64,000 bases of DNA, from positions 186,001 to 250,000 of the forward strand of contig NZ_JNZP01000013.1 of assembly GCF_000725545.1 (NCBI RefSeq), written 5' to 3'. Below, piece by piece: positions 3,001 through 45,156 of this stretch. The position numbers were made by a program, and so were the translations under genes. Every line of letters begins with the position of its first letter. Position 1 is the stretch's first letter. This DNA is from Streptomyces exfoliatus. GTDB taxonomy: Bacteria > Actinomycetota > Actinomycetes > Streptomycetales > Streptomycetaceae. The notes beneath the pieces are model-generated. The model was not told the DNA's origin and did no database searches. It saw only the letters and a list, made by a program, of their open reading frames with translations.

Positions 3001-3796
3001 CCTGGACGTGCTGTCCCTGCGCGGCGAGATCGCCTTCGAGGACGTCTCCTTCGCGTACGGGGGAGAGGACGGCACCGCCAAGAAGGAGACCGCCCTCACC
3101 GGCATCGACCTGCGCATCCCGGCCGGGCAGACCGTCGCCTTCGTCGGCGAGACCGGGGCGGGCAAGTCCACCCTGGTGAAGCTGGTCGCCCGGTTCTACG
3201 ACCCGACCGGCGGCCGGGTCACGGCCGACGGCACCGACCTGCGGGACCTCGACCTCACCGCGTACCGCCACCGGCTGGGCGTCGTCCCCCAGGAGGCGTA
3301 CCTCTTCGCCGGGACGGTCCGCGACGCCATCGCCTACGGCCGTCCCGAGGCGACCGACGCCCAGGTGGAGGCGGCGGCCCGCGCGGTCGGCGCGCACGAC
3401 ATGATCGCCACCCTCGACGGCGGCTACCTCCACGAGGTCGCCGAGCGGGGCCGGAACCTCTCCGCGGGGCAGCGCCAGCTCATCGCCCTCGCCCGCGCCG
3501 AGCTGGTCGACCCGGACGTGCTCCTCCTCGACGAGGCGACGGCGGCCCTCGACCTGGCCAGCGAGGCCCAGGTCAACCAGGCCACCGACCGCATCTCGGG
3601 CCGCCGCACCACCCTGGTCGTCGCCCACCGGCTGACCACGGCGGCCCGCGCGGACCGCGTCATCGTCATGGACCACGGCCGGGTCGCGGAGGACGGCACC
3701 CACGAGGAACTCCTCGCCCTGGACGGCCGGTACGCCACGCTGTGGCGCACGTTCATCGGGGAGTCGGTGGACGAGGAGGAGCCGGAACGGGTGTGA
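8..3796 (+). CDS. Fused ABC exporter, two TMD-NBD halves in one chain
   Basis: This is a 1262-residue multidrug-type ABC exporter with two complete half-transporters in one polypeptide, so it should work as a single-chain heterodimer in the membrane. In the N half, Walker A GASGSGKST is at 388-396 and the signature LSGGQ at 492-496. In the C half, GETGAGKST is at 1047-1055 and the signature is LSAGQ at 1151-1155. The residue after Walker B is Asp517 in the N half (LLLLDDATSAVD) and the usual Glu1176 in the C half. One composite ATP site (D517 plus LSAGQ) therefore looks degenerate, as in heterodimeric exporters of the TM287/288 type. The N-terminus carries three AADG repeats. The GTG start lies seven bases from the window edge and no ribosome site is visible, so the true start could be further upstream. 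The substrate cannot be inferred. Confidence 0.9.
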   Translation: MGQHKQAADGQPAADGRPAADGRQGWARRLTGYAWRYKANVILALGSSLLGMAVLALVPLVTKVIIDDVIGTKTRDLGVWTGLLIGAAVLVYVLTYVRRYYGGRLALDVQHDLRTDMYATITRLDGRRQDELSTGQVVGRATSDLQLIQGLLFMLPMTIGNVLLFLISLAVMAWLSIPLTLVALAVAPALWFIAKRSRTRLHPATWYAQQQAGVVAGVVDGAVTGVRVVKGFGQEDQETGKIREAGRKLFAGRLRTVRLNSKYTPALQAVPALGQVAVLALGGWLAYKGQITLGTFVAFSAYLASLVGPVRMLAMVLTVGQQARAGVDRVLDLIDTEPVIQDGTRELPADAPATVEFDDVSFAYEDGTPVLDGFSLEIRPGETVAVVGASGSGKSTVSLLLPRFYDVSHGAVLVGGHDVRELTLDSLRAAVGLVPEDSFLFSDTVRANIAYGLPDATQEQIEAAARAAQADRFIAELPEGYDTKVGEHGLTLSGGQRQRVALARAILTDPRLLLLDDATSAVDANVEHEIHEALKSVMAGRTTLLIAHRRSTLNLADRIAVLEDGRLAALGTQAELEEHSPLFRRLLTDPEELGAVSPGHIAPPDVPEDRTLRAELDAEFDAERGITPTLWVRDEAADRESEVPGATPELLAAVEALPPAADTPDIDEARAVSPEDAYGLRRLLRGFGVPLLISLGLVALDAGAGLLLPILIRHGIDEGVNRLAIGAVWAASALALVTVLVQWVAQTAETRMTGRTGERVLYALRLKIFAQLQRLGLDYYERELTGRIMTRMTTDVDALSTFLQTGLVTAFVSVVTFFGIMVALLVLDLQLALVVFATLPVLAVATYFFRRSSVKAYELARERISVVNGDLQESVSGLRIVQAFRRERSGAARFAERSDSYREARVRGQWLISIYFPFVTLLSSVAAAAVMIVGANRIEAGTLTTGALVAYLLYIDLFFAPVQQLSQVFDGYQQAAVSLKRMQELLQEPTSTAAADAPLDVLSLRGEIAFEDVSFAYGGEDGTAKKETALTGIDLRIPAGQTVAFVGETGAGKSTLVKLVARFYDPTGGRVTADGTDLRDLDLTAYRHRLGVVPQEAYLFAGTVRDAIAYGRPEATDAQVEAAARAVGAHDMIATLDGGYLHEVAERGRNLSAGQRQLIALARAELVDPDVLLLDEATAALDLASEAQVNQATDRISGRRTTLVVAHRLTTAARADRVIVMDHGRVAEDGTHEELLALDGRYATLWRTFIGESVDEEEPERV

Positions 3797-3877
3797 GCAG
3801 GAGGTGATCCGCCCGGATGAGGAGATGAGTATCCGGGCGGATGGTCCGGCCTCCGCCCGACGGGGTTGGATCGGGGC

Positions 3878-4231
3878 ATGAGCAACGACTCCCGCACCCG
3901 CGCCGCCTCGCCCGTCCCCGTCACCCCGCCGGACGTCGAGGGCGCGCGTCTGCGCAAGCGGTCCGTGCTCTGGGCCGGGCTGTTCCTGCCCGCGAGCCTG
4001 CTCGCCGGCATCCTGGTGCTCACCCGTGAGAACACCGCCCGCTGCCTCACCTACGGGGAGGCCTGCGACGGCACCCCCGGGTTCCTGTACCTGGTGAGCC
4101 TGGCGATCGGCCTCGCGGCGCTGGTGACCGTGCAGAGCACCTCCCGCCCCGACGTCCGCCGGGCGGCCTTCTGGACCCAGCTCGGCGCCGAGGGCGTCTT
4201 CCTCCTCTTCCTCCTCACCGCCTTCTCGTAG
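3878..4231 (+). CDS. Small two-helix membrane protein, unknown function
   Basis: A protein of 117 residues with two hydrophobic segments (about 32-50 and 72-92). A short Cys-containing loop (RCLTYGEACDG) lies between them and a third hydrophobic stretch is at the C-terminus. The ATG at 3878 follows a GGGG run and is preferred to an in-frame TTG at 3866 that lacks a better ribosome site. It lies 81 bp after the ABC exporter on the same strand and could be co-transcribed. I do not recognise the family. Codon use matches the neighbours, so it is probably a genuine gene. Confidence 0.65.
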   Translation: MSNDSRTRAASPVPVTPPDVEGARLRKRSVLWAGLFLPASLLAGILVLTRENTARCLTYGEACDGTPGFLYLVSLAIGLAALVTVQSTSRPDVRRAAFWTQLGAEGVFLLFLLTAFS

Positions 4232-28468: not shown

Positions 28469-29770
28469 ATGAGAAACACCCGTACGTTTCTGGTCGCGGC
28501 GAGTGTCCTGCTCGCCGCTCTGATCCCCCCGGCCGCCGGAGGGGCGCAGGCTCTCGCCGCGCCCCTCACGGCGCCCACCCCGGGCCCGGCCGCCGCGGCG
28601 CCCGAGCCCGGCACCGTCGTCCAGCGGGACGGCACCGTCGTCGTCCCCGCGGGCGAGGAGGGCCCCGTCACCAGCTACCTGCTCGCCACCCTCCCGGCCG
28701 GTGCCACCGGACAGGTCTCGGCCCGGATCGACTGGGCCAACCTCGAATGGTGGGACAGCGAACGACCCGGCTGGCTCTCCTACCTCACCTGGTCGTGCTC
28801 CGTGAACGGCGGCCCGTTCACGCCCTGCCCGCTCAACGGCCCCCATGACGGGGAGCACCCCTACACCCAACTCCCGACGACGACCGCCGCGCCCACCCTC
28901 ACCTACGCCGTCCGGGTCGACGCGGCCACGTACGGCTCCGTGGGCGTGCCCACCTGGGGCACCGTCTCGGTCACCGCGGCGGGCGAGAAACTCGCCGACG
29001 GGCCCGTCGAGTTCCAGTTCGTCGACGGCACCCCGGAGGCCTACCGGCGCACGGTGCTGCACGCCCGCGACCGGAGCGGCGTGCTCTGGCAGTACGAGGG
29101 GACGGGCAAGGAGGACGCACCCTTCAAGCCGCGCACGCGGGTCGGCGGCGGCTGGGGCGTCTACACGGCGCTCACCAAGCTCGGCCCCTCGACGGCGGAC
29201 GGCGGCGGCGACCTCGTCGCCCGGGACGGCGCCGGCACCCTCTGGTACTACTCCGGCTCGGGCGACCCGGCCGCACCGTACTGGCCGCGCGTCCGCGTCG
29301 GCGGCGGCTGGAACGCCTACACCGCGATCACCGGCACGCCGAGCGGGCTGCTCGCCCGGGACCGCTCCGGTGTCCTCTGGCACTACGTGGGCTCCCACCA
29401 GTCCCCGCCCGCGGCCCCCTTCAAGGCACCCGTCCGGGTCGGCGGCGGCTGGAACGCCTACACCGCGATGACCGCGCTCGGCGACGGCCTCGTGGCCAGG
29501 GACACGAGCGGAGTGCTCTGGCTCTACCGGCAGAGCAACCCGCGCGACCCCGCCGTACCGTTTGCGCCGCGCGTCCGCGTCGGCGGCGGGTGGAACGTCT
29601 ACTCCGGCCTCGTGGGCACCGGGGAGCTCGGGCGCCTCGGTCCTCCGGACCTCGTGGCCCTCGACAGGGACGGCATCCTCTGGACGTACGAGGGCACCTA
29701 CTACGCGCCCCCCGGACCGAACCGGAAGCGGGTCGGCTGGGGCTGGAACATCTACGACGCCCTCGTCTGA
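28469..29770 (+). CDS. Secreted tachylectin-like five-bladed propeller protein, copy 2
   Basis: A 433-residue paralogue of the preceding gene. The signal peptide ends near residue 35, followed by an Ala/Pro-rich spacer. The N-terminal domain begins with PEPGTVVQRDG and carries two Cys (WSCSVNGGPFTPC). Five WN-Y blades follow, of which the last is the variant RVGWGWNIYDALV. The ATG at 28469 has a GGGGGATCC leader, the same arrangement as in copy 1. The gap to copy 1 is 33 bp. Divergence is greatest in the N-terminal domain, while the blades are highly similar, which fits an old tandem duplication with different partners or ligands. Confidence 0.85.
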   Translation: MRNTRTFLVAASVLLAALIPPAAGGAQALAAPLTAPTPGPAAAAPEPGTVVQRDGTVVVPAGEEGPVTSYLLATLPAGATGQVSARIDWANLEWWDSERPGWLSYLTWSCSVNGGPFTPCPLNGPHDGEHPYTQLPTTTAAPTLTYAVRVDAATYGSVGVPTWGTVSVTAAGEKLADGPVEFQFVDGTPEAYRRTVLHARDRSGVLWQYEGTGKEDAPFKPRTRVGGGWGVYTALTKLGPSTADGGGDLVARDGAGTLWYYSGSGDPAAPYWPRVRVGGGWNAYTAITGTPSGLLARDRSGVLWHYVGSHQSPPAAPFKAPVRVGGGWNAYTAMTALGDGLVARDTSGVLWLYRQSNPRDPAVPFAPRVRVGGGWNVYSGLVGTGELGRLGPPDLVALDRDGILWTYEGTYYAPPGPNRKRVGWGWNIYDALV

Positions 29771-32841: not shown

Positions 32842-32887
32842 TGGGGTGACCGGCCGGGACGGGAAGACCGGACGCGAGAGGTGGCGC

Positions 32888-33871
32888 GTGGAGACGGAGC
32901 CGTACGACCTGATCGCCATGGGGCGCCTCGGCGTGGACCTGTACCCGCTCCAGACCGGTGTCGGCCTCGACCGCGTCGAGAGCTTCGGCAAGTTCCTCGG
33001 CGGCTCCGCGGCCAACGTGGCCGTCGCCGCCGCCCGCCTGGGCCGCCGCACCGCCCTCGTCTCCCGCACCGGCGCCGACCCCTTCGGCACCTATCTGCGC
33101 CGCGAGCTCAAGGGCTTCGGCGTGGACGAGCGGTGGGTGGGCGAGGTCGAGGAGTACCCCACGCCGGTCACCTTCTGCGCCCTCTTCCCGCCCGACGACT
33201 TCCCGCTCACCTTCTACCGCCGCCCCAAGGCGCCCGACCTGGAGATCCACCCGCACGAGCTCGACCTCGACGCGATCCGCGCCGCCCGCGTCTTCTGGGC
33301 GACCGGCACCGGCCTGAGCGCCGAGCCGAGCCGCACCGCGACCCTGGCGGCGCTGCGGGCCAGGTCAGGCCGGGAGGTGACGGTCCTCGACCTGGACTGG
33401 CGGCCGATGTTCTGGGCGGATCCCGCCGAAGCCCGCCCGTACTACCGCGAGGCCCTGCGGCACGCGACCGTCGCCGTCGGCAACCTCGACGAGTGCGAGG
33501 TGGGGACGGGGGAGCGCGATCCGTACACCGCCGCCCGCGCCCTGCTCGACGCCGGCGGGGGAAGCCTCCGGCTCGCCGTCGTCAAACAGGGCCCCAAGGG
33601 CGTCCTCGCACTCGCCGCCGACGGGACCCGCGCCGAGGTGCCGCCGCTGCCGGTGGACGTCGTCAACGGCCTGGGCGCGGGCGACGCGTTCGGCGGGGCG
33701 CTCGTCCACGGCCTGCTCGCCGGCCGGGACCTCGACACGATCCTGCGCCACGCCAACGCCGCCGGGGCGATCGTCGCGGGCCGCCTCGCCTGCTCGTCCG
33801 CCATGCCGTACGCGGAGGAGATCGCCGAGGCGCTCGCGACGGGCACGGGAACGATCCGCGAGAGGGGGTAG
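32888..33871 (+). CDS. iolC: 5-dehydro-2-deoxygluconokinase, PfkB family
   Basis: A 327-residue PfkB carbohydrate kinase that phosphorylates 5-dehydro-2-deoxygluconate in inositol catabolism. It has the N-terminal RLGVDLYPLQTGVGL, the GGSAANVAVAAARLG signature, and the C-terminal NGLGAGDAFGGALVHGLL with the catalytic Asp. The GTG at 32888 has a GAGAGG ribosome site; a frame extending to 32846 has no better start. Assignment as iolC rests on its place as first gene before iolB and iolD. Confidence 0.9.
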   Translation: METEPYDLIAMGRLGVDLYPLQTGVGLDRVESFGKFLGGSAANVAVAAARLGRRTALVSRTGADPFGTYLRRELKGFGVDERWVGEVEEYPTPVTFCALFPPDDFPLTFYRRPKAPDLEIHPHELDLDAIRAARVFWATGTGLSAEPSRTATLAALRARSGREVTVLDLDWRPMFWADPAEARPYYREALRHATVAVGNLDECEVGTGERDPYTAARALLDAGGGSLRLAVVKQGPKGVLALAADGTRAEVPPLPVDVVNGLGAGDAFGGALVHGLLAGRDLDTILRHANAAGAIVAGRLACSSAMPYAEEIAEALATGTGTIRERG

Positions 33872-33880
33872 GGATCCGCC

Positions 33881-34708
33881 ATGAACTCCGACCCGACCGC
33901 TCCCTCCCTCCACCTGCCCGCCGGGACCGCCGCCCAGGGCCCGTACGCGCTTCACATCGATCCCGGTCGGGCCGGATGGACGTACTCCGCCCTGCGGGTC
34001 CTCACCCTCGGACCGGGGGAGATCCACTCCTTCGGGAGCGGGGATTCCGAATGGGTCGTGCTTCCCCTCTCCGGTGCCTGTAGCGTGCGCGTCGACGGCG
34101 AGATCCTCGAACTCCTGGGCCGCGCGAGCGTGTTCGACGGAGTGACCGACTTCGCCTATGTACCGCGCGACGCCCACGCCCAGATCGCCTCCGGTGCGGG
34201 AGGCCGCTTCGCTTTGGCAGGAGCGAAGTGCGAGCGACGACTCCCCGCCCGCTACGGCCCCGCGCCGGAGGTTCCCGTCGAGACGCGCGGCAGCGGCGAC
34301 CGCGCCCGCCGGGTGCGGAACTTCGCCTCGGCCGACGCCTTCGACTGCGACCGGCTCATCGCCGTCGAGGTCGTCACTCCCGGCGGCAACTGGTCCTCCT
34401 ACCCGCCGCACAAGCACGACGAGCACCGCCCGGGCGCCGAGTCCGTCCTCGAAGAGATCTACTACTACGAGATCGAGGGCCCGCGGGGCCTCGCCTACCA
34501 GCGGATCTCCCCCTCCCGGCCCGGCGGCACGGAACTCCTCGCCGAGGTGCGCGACGGCGACGCCGTCCTCGTACCGGACGGATGGCACGGCCCCTCGATC
34601 GCCCAGCCGGGGCACGACCTCTACTACCTCAACGTCATGGCGGGCCCCGGCCCCGAGCGCGAGTGGAAGATCTGCTTCCACCCGGACCACACGGAGGGAT
34701 ACGCATGA
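33881..34708 (+). CDS. iolB: 5-deoxy-glucuronate isomerase
   Basis: A 275-residue cupin-type isomerase converting 5-deoxyglucuronate to 5-dehydro-2-deoxygluconate, the IolC substrate. Metal-binding cupin residues are seen in SSYPPHKHDEH, EEIYYYEIEG and VLVPDGWHGPSIAQPGHDLYYL. It starts at ATG 33881, nine bases after iolC. Its stop codon overlaps the first of six mini-cistrons that lead to iolD. Confidence 0.92.
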   Translation: MNSDPTAPSLHLPAGTAAQGPYALHIDPGRAGWTYSALRVLTLGPGEIHSFGSGDSEWVVLPLSGACSVRVDGEILELLGRASVFDGVTDFAYVPRDAHAQIASGAGGRFALAGAKCERRLPARYGPAPEVPVETRGSGDRARRVRNFASADAFDCDRLIAVEVVTPGGNWSSYPPHKHDEHRPGAESVLEEIYYYEIEGPRGLAYQRISPSRPGGTELLAEVRDGDAVLVPDGWHGPSIAQPGHDLYYLNVMAGPGPEREWKICFHPDHTEGYA

Positions 34709-34804
34709 GCAGGCGCTACGAATGAGCAGGGACCAGTGAGCAGGGGAGACCAATGAGCAGGGATCAGTGAGCAGGGGAGACCAATGAGCAGGGGATCCGC
34801 ATGA
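34705..34804 (+). repeat. Chain of six overlapping mini-cistrons between iolB and iolD
   Basis: From the iolB stop to the iolD start, the spacer reads as six consecutive start-to-stop units: MSRRYE (34705-34725), MSRDQ (34722-34739), VSRGDQ (34736-34756), MSRDQ (34753-34770), VSRGDQ (34767-34787) and MSRGSA (34784-34804). Each start overlaps the preceding stop as ATGA or GTGA, and the last stop overlaps the iolD ATG at 34801. Units begin with NTGAGCAGG at 14- or 17-base spacing, and most contain an AGGGGAGA-like ribosome-binding sequence. The block is a tandem repeat of a start/stop junction. The arrangement is seen directly; a role in coupled re-initiation is inferred. Confidence 0.85.
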
Positions 34805-36669
34805 CCATCCGGCTGACCGTCGCCCAGGCGCTCGTGCGCTTCCTCGCCGCCCAGTACACGGAGCGCGACGGAGCCCGGCACCGGCTGATCGCCGCCACCT
34901 GGGGCATCTTCGGCCACGGGAACGTCGCCGGGATCGGCCAGGCGCTCCTCGAAGAACCCCGCATGCCCTTCCACCAGGGCCGTAACGAACAGGCCATGGT
35001 GCACGCCGCCGTCGGCTACGCACGCCAGCGCAACAGGCTCTCCGCGCACGCCGTCACCACCTCCATCGGCCCCGGCGCCACCAACCTCGTCACCGGCGCC
35101 GCCCTCGCCACCGTCAACCACCTGCCCGTCCTGCTCCTGCCCGGCGACACCTTCGCGGGACGCCCCGCCGACCCCGTGCTCCAGCAGCTCGAAGTCCCGT
35201 ACGCCGGCGACGTCTCCGTCAACGACTGCCTGCGCCCCGTCTCGAAGTACTTCGACCGGATCGGGCGCCCCGAGGCCCTGATCCCGGCCGCGCTCGCCGC
35301 GACGCGGGTCCTCGCCGACCCCGTGGAGACCGGTGCGGTGACCCTCGCGCTGCCCCAGGACGTCCAGGCGGAGGCGTACGACTGGCCGGAGGAGTTCTTC
35401 GCCGAGCGGACCTGGCGGGTCCGCCGCCCCTCCCCTGACGAGCACGAACTGACCGCCGCCGTCGCGGCGATCGGCCGGGCCACCCGTCCGCTGATCGTCG
35501 TCGGCGGCGGTGTCCGGTACAGCGGGGCCGAGGAGGCGCTCCACGACTTCGCCACGCTCACCGGCATCCCCGTCGCCGCCACCCAGGCCGGCAAGGGAGT
35601 GCTCCCGCACGGCCACCCCCAGGACGTCGGCGGCATCGGCCACACCGGCACCGCCGTCGCCGACCACCTGGCCCGCACCGCCGACGTGGTCCTCGGCGTC
35701 GGCACCCGCTGGACCGACTTCACCACCGCCTCCGGCACCCTCTTCGGCCACCCGGACCTGCGGTTCGTCAACCTCAACATCGCCGCCTTCGACTCCCACA
35801 AGATGGCCGCGCTCCCGCTCGTCGCCGACGCGCGCGAAGGCCTGGAGCAGCTCCACGCGCTCCTCGACCCGCACCACGTCACCGCGCACTACGTGCACGA
35901 GTACGCCGAGGAGAAGCTCCGCTGGCAGACCCGCGCCGACGCCGCCTACGCCGTCCCCGACGAGGACGCCCGCCCCACCCAGGCCCAGGTCCTCGGCGTA
36001 CTCGACACTCTGGTCGACGCGAGCGACATCCTGATCAACGCCGCCGGCTCGCTCCCCGGCGACCTCCACAAGCTGTGGCGGACCCGCTCACCGGACCAGT
36101 ACCACGTCGAATACGGCTACTCGTGCATGGGCTACGAGATCCCGGCGGCCGTCGGCGTCCTCCTCGCCGCACCCGACCGGCCCGTCTGGGCCCTCGTCGG
36201 CGACGGTACGTACCTGATGAACCCCACCGAAATCGTCACCGCCGTGCAGGAGCGCCTCCCCCTCAGGCTGATCGTCCTCCAGAACCACGGCTACGCCTCC
36301 ATCGGCGGCCTCTCGGAGGCGGTCGGCGCCGAGCGGTACGGCACCGACTACCGGCACCGCGACGCGGACGGCGGCTTCACCGGCCCGCCGCTCCCCGTCG
36401 ACCTCGGCGCCAACGCCGCCTCCCTCGGGATGCGGGTGCTGCGCCCCCGCACCATCCGTGACCTGCGCGAAGCCCTAGCGGACGCGCGGGCCGCGACGGT
36501 TCCCACATGTGTCTACGTCGAGACCGAAACGCCCGACACTGTGTCGGGCCCGCCCCCGGCGCAGGCGTGGTGGGATGTGCCCGTGGCCGAGACCTCGACC
36601 CGCCCGTCGGCGGTCAAGGCCCGGGAGGAGTACGACCGGCACGTCACCGCCCGACGCCGCCATCTCTGA
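34801..36669 (+). CDS. iolD: Trihydroxycyclohexane-1,2-dione acylhydrolase, ThDP-dependent
   Basis: A 622-residue thiamine-diphosphate enzyme that opens the ring of 3D-trihydroxycyclohexane-1,2-dione to give 5-deoxyglucuronate. The N-terminal pyrimidine domain has the activating Glu63 in HQGRNEQAM. The middle domain includes VGGGVRYSGAEEAL. The C-terminal PP domain has the GDG motif (LVGDGTYLMNPTEIV) ending in LQNHGYASIGG. The start at 34801 overlaps the last mini-cistron stop. It is followed 14 bases later by mmsA, completing the inositol route to acetyl-CoA. Confidence 0.94.
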   Translation: MTIRLTVAQALVRFLAAQYTERDGARHRLIAATWGIFGHGNVAGIGQALLEEPRMPFHQGRNEQAMVHAAVGYARQRNRLSAHAVTTSIGPGATNLVTGAALATVNHLPVLLLPGDTFAGRPADPVLQQLEVPYAGDVSVNDCLRPVSKYFDRIGRPEALIPAALAATRVLADPVETGAVTLALPQDVQAEAYDWPEEFFAERTWRVRRPSPDEHELTAAVAAIGRATRPLIVVGGGVRYSGAEEALHDFATLTGIPVAATQAGKGVLPHGHPQDVGGIGHTGTAVADHLARTADVVLGVGTRWTDFTTASGTLFGHPDLRFVNLNIAAFDSHKMAALPLVADAREGLEQLHALLDPHHVTAHYVHEYAEEKLRWQTRADAAYAVPDEDARPTQAQVLGVLDTLVDASDILINAAGSLPGDLHKLWRTRSPDQYHVEYGYSCMGYEIPAAVGVLLAAPDRPVWALVGDGTYLMNPTEIVTAVQERLPLRLIVLQNHGYASIGGLSEAVGAERYGTDYRHRDADGGFTGPPLPVDLGANAASLGMRVLRPRTIRDLREALADARAATVPTCVYVETETPDTVSGPPPAQAWWDVPVAETSTRPSAVKAREEYDRHVTARRRHL

Positions 36670-36683
36670 AGGAGTAACTCGTC

Positions 36684-38186
36684 ATGACGAAGACCGTCCA
36701 CCACTGGATCGGTGGCAAGACCGTCGAGGGCACGTCGGGCAACTGGGGCCCGGTCACGGACCCGGCCACCGGCGCCGTCACCACCCAGGTCGCGCTCGCC
36801 TCCGTCGAGGAGGTGGACGCCGCCGTCGCCGCCGCGAAGGACGCCTTCGCGACGTGGGGCACCTCGTCCCTCGCCCAGCGCACCACGATCCTCTTCAAGT
36901 TCCGCGCGCTGCTCGACGCCAACCGCGACGCCATCGCCGAGCTGATCGTCGCCGAGCACGGCAAGGTCCACTCGGACGCCCTCGGCGAGGTCGCCCGCGG
37001 CCTGGAGATCGTCGACCTGGCCTGCGGCATCACCACCCAGCTCAAGGGCGAGCTCTCCACCCAGGTGTCGAACCGGGTGGACGTGGCCTCGATCCGCCAG
37101 CCGGTCGGCGTCGTCGCCGGCATCACGCCCTTCAACTTCCCGGCCATGGTGCCGATGTGGATGTTCCCGATCGCCATCGCGACCGGCAACACCTTCATCC
37201 TCAAGCCCAGCGAGAAGGACCCCTCGCCGGCCTTGAAGATCGCCGAGCTGCTCGCGGAGGCGGGCCTCCCGGACGGCGTCTTCAACGTCCTGAACGGCGA
37301 CAAGGTCTCCGTGGACCGACTCCTGGAGCACCCGGACGTCTCCGCGATCTCCTTCGTGGGCTCGACGCCGATCGCCCGCCACATCCACACCACCGCCTCC
37401 GCCAACGGCAAGCGCGTCCAGGCGCTCGGCGGCGCGAAGAACCACATGCTGGTCCTCCCGGACGCCGACCTCGACGCGGCGGCCGACGCGGCCGTCTCGG
37501 CGGCGTACGGCTCCGCGGGCGAGCGCTGCATGGCCATCTCGGCGGTCGTGGCCGTCGGCGCCATCGGCGACGAGCTGGTGCAGAAGATCCGCGAGCGCGC
37601 CGAGAAGATCAAGATCGGCCCCGGCACCGACCCGACCTCCGAGATGGGCCCGCTCATCACGGCCGTCCACCGCGACAAGGTCGCCTCCTACGTCCACGGC
37701 GCGGCGGACGAGGGCTGCGAGGTCGTCCTCGACGGCACCGGGTACACGGTCGAGGGCCACGAGAACGGCCACTGGATCGGCCTCTCCCTCCTGGACCACG
37801 TGCCCACCACGGCCAAGGCCTACCAGGACGAGATCTTCGGACCGGTGCTCTGCGTGCTGCGCGCCGAGACGTACGAGGAGGGCCTCGCCCTCATCAACGG
37901 CTCGCGCTTCGGCAACGGCACCGCGATCTTCACCCGCGACGGCGGCGCGGCCCGCCGCTTCCAGATGGAGGTCGAGGCCGGCATGGTCGGCGTGAACGTG
38001 CCGATCCCGGTGCCGGTCGGCTACCACTCCTTCGGTGGCTGGAAGGACTCGCTCTTCGGCGACCACCACATCTACGGCACCGACGGCGTGCACTTCTACA
38101 CCCGCGGCAAGGTCGTCACCACCCGCTGGCCGGACCCGTCCGAGGCCCCGGCGGGCGTGGACCTGGGCTTCCCGCGCAACCACTGA
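36684..38186 (+). CDS. mmsA: (Methyl)malonate-semialdehyde dehydrogenase, CoA-acylating
   Basis: A 500-residue aldehyde dehydrogenase of the MmsA/IolA type, converting malonate semialdehyde (from inositol) or methylmalonate semialdehyde (from valine) to acyl-CoA. The catalytic Cys282 is in GERCMAIS, the NAD-binding segment is GVVAGITPFNFPAMVPMWM, and VGVNVPIPVPVGYHSFGGWK lies near the C-terminus. The ATG at 36684 follows GAAGGAG. It is the last gene of the iol operon, followed by a strong terminator. Confidence 0.94.
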   Translation: MTKTVHHWIGGKTVEGTSGNWGPVTDPATGAVTTQVALASVEEVDAAVAAAKDAFATWGTSSLAQRTTILFKFRALLDANRDAIAELIVAEHGKVHSDALGEVARGLEIVDLACGITTQLKGELSTQVSNRVDVASIRQPVGVVAGITPFNFPAMVPMWMFPIAIATGNTFILKPSEKDPSPALKIAELLAEAGLPDGVFNVLNGDKVSVDRLLEHPDVSAISFVGSTPIARHIHTTASANGKRVQALGGAKNHMLVLPDADLDAAADAAVSAAYGSAGERCMAISAVVAVGAIGDELVQKIRERAEKIKIGPGTDPTSEMGPLITAVHRDKVASYVHGAADEGCEVVLDGTGYTVEGHENGHWIGLSLLDHVPTTAKAYQDEIFGPVLCVLRAETYEEGLALINGSRFGNGTAIFTRDGGAARRFQMEVEAGMVGVNVPIPVPVGYHSFGGWKDSLFGDHHIYGTDGVHFYTRGKVVTTRWPDPSEAPAGVDLGFPRNH

Positions 38187-45115: not shown

Positions 45116-45120
45116 AGCCG

Positions 45121-45156
45121 CCTCTTGAGCCTCTTGAGCCTCTTGAGCCTCTTGAG
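45121..45156. repeat. Four perfect 9-bp tandem repeats
   Basis: CCTCTTGAG is repeated four times without interruption, five bases after the DUF1772 stop. It is a likely slippage-prone locus. Confidence 0.85.

Follow-up and report, generated by a model that had tools for sequence, protein, structure and literature searches.

A chain of six overlapping mini-cistrons between iolB and iolD of Streptomyces exfoliatus as a possible ribosome relay

What becomes of a ribosome that finishes one gene when the way to the next leads through a series of very short open reading frames (ORFs), each beginning in the stop codon of the one before? The junction of iolB and iolD in Streptomyces exfoliatus raises this question, and we studied it in a window of 64,000 nucleotides (nt), the whole stretch analysed (positions 186,001 to 250,000 of contig NZ_JNZP01000013.1, here C13, of a 7.87 Mb genome), from whose first letter all window coordinates are counted. 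The inositol genes iolB (5-deoxy-glucuronate isomerase, 33881..34708) and iolD (34801..36669), both for sugar breakdown, lie on the + strand and pass the curated cut-offs of their models (TIGR04378, 270 against 205 bits, and TIGR04377, 866 against 715 bits). Six mini-ORFs of 5-6 codons on the same strand join them without a break, the chain running from the stop of iolB (34708) to the start of iolD (34801). Direct reading of starts, stops and peptides confirmed these six chained mini-cistrons, which an earlier sequence-only reading had described: MSRRYE (34705..34725, opened by an ATG overlapping the TGA of iolB), MSRDQ (34722..34739, ATG, 14 nt to the next start), VSRGDQ (34736..34756, GTG), a near copy of the first MSRDQ (34753..34770, ATG), a copy of VSRGDQ (34767..34787, GTG) and MSRGSA (34784..34804, ATG), whose stop overlaps the ATG of iolD at 34801. 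Every start shares a four-letter NTGA (N, any nucleotide) with the preceding stop, which makes seven overlaps of 4 nt. The start-to-start steps are 17, 14, 17, 14, 17 and 17 nt, the two unit lengths differing by 3 nt; all of these are 2 mod 3, so that the chain passes through all three reading frames.

The array is a tandem repeat. Tandem Repeats Finder (TRF) reports it at 34706..34793 on the + strand, with a period of 31 (14+17), 2.8 copies and a 91% match. When the 92-nt spacer was dinucleotide-shuffled 200,000 times, a six-link chain appeared once and three-link chains 9,849 times, a comparison that overstates the surprise because units copied in tandem are not independent. Peptides such as MSRDQ and VSRGDQ contain no codon run of the kind by which a leader-peptide attenuator is recognised. 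The predicted unpaired fraction at the starts of the array is 0.35-0.65; an RNA structure that hides the iolD start was considered and set aside; the predicted unpaired fraction there is 0.61 against 0.30-0.48 in four relatives with a direct overlap.

Ribosome sites are unevenly distributed along the chain. A Shine-Dalgarno (SD) motif, GGAGG, lies at the 3' end of iolB, shortly upstream of the first mini-cistron start, and the computed pairing energies with the anti-SD sequence are, for the seven starts in order, -10.4, -4.6, -5.1, -9.0, -5.1, -9.0 and -8.1, on a coding background with a mean of -3.6 in which 31% of sites reach -5. Four starts have strong SDs and three are near background, so that the claim that the units carry their own ribosome sites stands for the former and fails for the latter.

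How did the array arise? Close relatives have a plain overlap (GGATACGC-ATGAGCATCCGG in L005) at the site of the array, which has thus grown out of such an overlap in the ancestor. This comparison, together with the TRF period, bears out the proposed origin by tandem repetition, and supports the view that the array was built by duplication of the junction's own module of SD and stop/start. The closest sequence is that of the sister species Streptomyces griseoluteus NRRL ISP-5360 (L055), with 98.4% DNA identity over 2,483 nt (array end through iolD) and 96.4% in iolB. It has a complete chain of three units (MNRGYA, MNRGYE and MSRGSA; steps 17, 17 and 17), the last identical in its 17-nt DNA unit to the last unit of the window. 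With three units there and six here, all linked, both copy number and unit length have changed while every overlap was kept. A search for strains closer than S. griseoluteus, among relatives of G318, returned Streptomyces already seen and other genera.

We also considered a dispersed element, which was not supported: a 300-bp query gave one match in its own genome (40 of 170 candidates scored), the pattern of three TGAGCAGG units gave four overlapping matches there, all inside the iolB-iolD array, and no further instance of the array pattern was found in that genome. As a separate observation, the SD at the iolB end of S. griseoluteus (L055, 3330-3349) is weakened (GGAGGGAT to GCAGGGAT, from -10.4 to -4.8), and the SD copies within its array stay at about -8, as if SD duty had shifted into the array.

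If the overlaps matter, other junctions of the same two genes should preserve them. We collected 324 iol loci: 30 listed by a search that matched 383 of 392 Streptomyces genomes, the 80 best among 279 named GTDB records, another 30 drawn from 80 more handles, and additional loci and fetched stretches. In 292 of them a motif of the IolB C-terminus and one of the IolD N-terminus lay within 700 nt of each other (32 were dropped), and removal of duplicates left 243 distinct Streptomyces junctions. In 222 the iolB stop directly overlaps a start open in the iolD frame, 13 are complete relays, seven have no start at the iolB stop and one has a broken mini-ORF. SD pairing of -5 or better precedes the overlapping start in 92% of the 222 direct junctions, as opposed to 31% of the coding background. 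An alignment of this junction in related Streptomyces had been proposed as a test of whether the overlaps are conserved as the repeat number varies, and they are (three units versus six). Variants that break the chain with no effect on iolD expression had been named as evidence against the relay; in none of the 243 does an overlapping start run out of frame into iolD, and the only break is a mini-ORF that lacks an overlap (L023). One locus titled Microtetraspora glauca NRRL B-3735 (L078) has an iolB 85% identical to that of the window, amid Streptomyces matches, and its title may be wrong.

Four of the 13 relays (L142, L158, L265 and L267) have just one step, of 11 nt, in the form GTGAGG...ATGAG with the SD inside the stop; as their length could be dictated by the spacing of the SD alone, they were set aside. 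The broken L023 is of this type and was set aside likewise, and a further one (L190) was excluded for a missing motif. The nine others go back to about eight origins, the present strain and S. griseoluteus forming one group. The steps of the remainder are 29 nt in both L019 and L079, 44 in L069 (Streptomyces bikiniensis), 35/35 in L070, 41 in L188, 74 in L224, 20/20 in L288 and 41/38 in L395. Total relay lengths cover all classes mod 3 (70, 40 and 79 are 1 mod 3), and every single link is 2 mod 3. Parsimony on a tree built from IolB-IolD fragments requires 12 changes to account for the 13 relays, and each of the eight relay groups has a direct overlap as its nearest outside tip. Eight origins in one frame against none in the other have a chance of 0.004 at even odds, in a test framed after the data had been seen, and, equally post hoc, of 0.013 at the odds of 274:195 that mod-2 and mod-1 RTGA arrays (R, purine) show when counted in genomes.

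We lean, with modest confidence and from sequence comparison, towards the view that, of the duplications arising at a coupled NTGA junction, those kept are mainly the ones whose frame would allow stepwise reinitiation by the terminating ribosome. The ancestral iolB-iolD junction would have been a 4-nt overlap with an SD just upstream, which is the majority state today and presumably a coupled one, and local tandem duplication, seen in several lineages, would repeatedly have copied the module of SD and stop/start. If the copied length is 2 mod 3, the result would be a mini-cistron with a TGA overlapping the start codon that follows; if it is 1 mod 3, ribosomes setting out from the iolB stop would cross the iolD start out of frame. 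That only the former are found at iolB-iolD, albeit in small numbers, suggests that the first start, at the iolB stop, is used, and hence that ribosomes probably begin there. They would then read frames of 5-6 codons serially, reinitiating at each overlap until iolD, which might be reached by reinitiation, by fresh initiation on the SDs of the array, or by both. The array would thus be a relay that preserves coupling, tolerated rather than designed, able to grow and shrink and probably delivering somewhat fewer ribosomes than a direct overlap. More generally, the data suggest local DNA duplication as the source of such chains, which would endure mainly where the ribosome can still be handed over. 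Stepwise reinitiation as first proposed for this locus accordingly gains indirect backing, from the frames in the 243 junctions and the intact overlaps of the sister's three units.

Published distances fit this picture in part. Excerpts of one study (PMC10666635) report that in six gene pairs coupling is nearly lost at a spacing of about 20 nt and (almost) completely lost at +38 nt, and that the final 15 nt of the upstream gene are enough for coupling; by these figures two genes 92 nt apart would be uncoupled in the absence of a relay, and links of 14-17 nt fit. Several points nevertheless weigh against the relay. Work cited in excerpts of PMC12548453 found coupling unaffected by spacing up to +25 nt and persisting to about +40 at a 3-10-fold lower efficiency. 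Three of the seven starts have near-background SD energies, as given above, and iolD's own SD (-8.1) could serve initiation alone. Furthermore, NTGA tandem arrays are common across the genus and mostly not relays, and frames are broken at two of the other junctions described below.

These points lead to the most serious alternative, a neutral array: repeats anchored on TGA would expand without constraint behind genes, producing the chain as a side effect, and iolD would be initiated independently, by its own SD. We take this to be possible but doubtful. RTGA arrays of four copies occur at step 14 in 160 of 246 genomes, at step 13 in 80, at step 16 in 115 and at step 17 in 114; repeats of 8 nt swell the count at step 16, and repeats of 7 nt that at step 14. 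A control with the reversed motif, counted by eye and approximate, gave about 81, 27, 30 and 45 genomes for steps 14, 13, 17 and 16. A genome-wide preference for relay-compatible steps was rejected: the reversed motif shares the excess of 14 over 13, and the duplication itself therefore looks neutral. Sixty loci with such arrays at steps 14 and 13 were examined: in 17 the array starts precisely at the stop of the upstream gene, six of these before a convergent gene, and in one (L296) the upstream stop and the downstream gene start both fall exactly in the array. Arrays of three TGAGCAGG units were found in 15 of 384 genomes, in 14 of them away from iol. A looser scan found further chains of at least two links that run into a coding-like ORF (e.g. 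L301, L305, L334, L349, L437, L456 and L466). Apart from these counts, RTGA arrays were seen often to start at a stop codon, with step 14 twice as frequent as step 13; five ATGAGCAGGGGACCCCC units with a 17-nt step lie away from iol at G009:C1:7089989-7090082, and the window has a second NTGA chain at about 3784-3893, in which frames of 4 and 25 codons lead into a 117-codon ORF.

Against a neutral array stand the complete lack of out-of-frame insertions among the 243 iolB-iolD junctions, the intact overlaps of S. griseoluteus at a different copy number, and a second gene pair. This pair, isomerase and TetR, was found through a three-unit relay in G119 (steps 14, 14 and 14; L296/L410), where translations indicate a sugar-phosphate isomerase-like protein followed by a TetR-like one. 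Among 31 loci, 15 junctions are direct and five are relays; none is broken among these 20 with an overlapping start, three lack such a start, seven lack the motif and one lacks the upstream gene. A first motif had resolved 13 of the 31 (nine direct, four relay) and a second resolved 23; the upstream C-terminus looks unusual in four rows (L501, L517, L527 and L529). The relay steps are 14 (three times), 53, 179, 29 and 41 nt, the 179-nt one not being mini.

Two other junctions favour the neutral alternative. A WYL regulator and a zinc-ribbon gene are joined in G180 by a four-unit relay (L437, four steps of 17 nt); as an observation on its own, the units there are strongly diverged, and the proteins, named from their translations, are a WYL-type regulator and an 80-residue zinc-ribbon-like protein. 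In 31 loci of this pair, seven junctions are direct, nine relay, three broken (of 19 with an overlapping start) and seven without an overlapping start, and five were not found; four of the relays have a link of 125-197 nt and hence are not mini, and the upstream gene is probably mispicked in three rows (L477, L480 and L497). This pair was discarded as support for a frame rule, being too noisy. Between the upstream gene and iolB, 80 named loci comprise 23 relays, eight direct overlaps, four broken cases and one out-of-frame case (L100), 36 in all with an overlapping start, besides 39 without one and five without an upstream gene. Distinct GACTNCTGTGAGG junctions there with an ATG within 45 nt have step 11 in 28 cases, step 14 in nine and step 12 in one; none is in the third frame, and most share descent. 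In L118 and L124 the mini-frame ends in TGATG rather than NTGA. A single mini-frame, GTG AGG GCC GCA TGA, recurs about 20 nt upstream of iolB (L090, L093, L108 and others), joining the preceding gene to iolB, and its step-14 forms carry several different 3-nt insertions.

Two of these junctions obey the frame rule, and the other two are leaky. An unconstrained frame would show as broken or out-of-frame cases: there are no out-of-frame cases at iolB-iolD and no broken ones at isomerase-TetR, on about eight events and post hoc, and eight broken or out-of-frame cases at the two other junctions. A constraint on frame, if there is one at all, would appear where the start of the next gene already overlaps the stop.

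A relay whose copy number sets the ratio of IolD to IolB and is selected for doing so seems to us very improbable: three versus six units within about 2-4% DNA divergence and the varying SD strength along the array speak for it, but this array is present in two genomes only, and 222 of the 243 junctions are without any mini-cistron. Least credible of all is a landing pad whose multiple SDs draw extra ribosomes to iolD, since seven starts in 97 nt (four with strong SDs) and a gain of up to 20-fold from upstream nonsense ORFs in Escherichia coli (PMC13255528, in excerpt) have to be set against the at least 8-10 codons called for in that same paper, compared with 5-6 here, and against starts that, 14-17 nt apart, fall inside one ribosome footprint.

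Preservation of coupling by duplications that keep the overlaps remains the reading we prefer. A broader version would make serial reinitiation relays a recurrent, evolvable element of Streptomyces operons, in which a duplication of 2 mod 3 has no visible effect or a mildly attenuating one, those of 1 mod 3 are purged, and copy number adjusts the downstream gene quickly and reversibly; we think this unlikely as a whole, and a regulatory dial by copy number is speculation.

Around the array, iolC (32846-33871) and a methylmalonate-semialdehyde dehydrogenase gene (36684-38186) lie on the + strand, and a gene on the - strand matches the iolE model below its cut-off (133 versus 290 bits). Elsewhere, the window has a 141-nt tandem repeat with 2.4 copies (29265-29606) and a perfect 9-nt repeat, GCCTCTTGA, with 4.1 copies (45120-45156).

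Such chains provide a natural setting in which to test the coupling of adjacent genes in bacteria. It is contested whether many serial reinitiations on five-codon frames are possible and whether coupling acts by overlap or by proximity (excerpts of PMC10666635, as against the work cited in those of PMC12548453). Natural chains of one, two, three and six links at a single orthologous junction, with relatives that have none, are a ready length series for testing coupling, and the missing third frame at iolB-iolD would be a signature of coupling, legible in sequence alone, that can be sought at other junctions. Bicistronic designs, which are engineered, likewise pass the ribosome to a gene by a short meaningless ORF. 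An expression design with nonsense ORFs, as excerpts of PMC13255528 describe it, also hands the ribosome to a gene from a meaningless short ORF and differs from the array in being engineered, single and longer. Each link of the array is the standard -4 nt overlap of termination-reinitiation at ATGA (PMC10666635, in excerpt); in contrast to ordinary pairs with such an overlap, six links stand here in series between two genes. The sequence-only reading had known of no such series. The open-licence PubMed Central literature, as far as its excerpts go, yielded no description of such chains in Streptomyces or of locally born units of 14-17 nt; a close principle is known from mycobacterial interspersed repetitive units (MIRUs). 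In these, for example in senX3-regX3, small ORF units sit at a start codon with -4 nt coupling (excerpts of PMC12548453), and short ORFs are threaded into the start codon with little disturbance of expression (excerpts of PMC12548453 and PMC4213456), a principle shared by the array, whose unit ORFs are coupled to their neighbours by the same 4-nt overlap. MIRUs are likewise tandem and variable in number (three of 77 bp in H37Rv; two of 77 bp and one of 53 bp in CDC1551; PMC4213456, in excerpt), and by our own arithmetic both of these lengths are, like the steps here, 2 mod 3. They are, however, mycobacterial repeats of 53-77 bp that appear mobile and occur at many places, whereas the units here are 14-17 nt long, consist of the junction's own sequence at one locus in the genome, and have their relatives, as far as found, in Streptomyces. 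What differs from MIRUs is the birth of the chain in place, from the short module of the junction itself and in several lineages.
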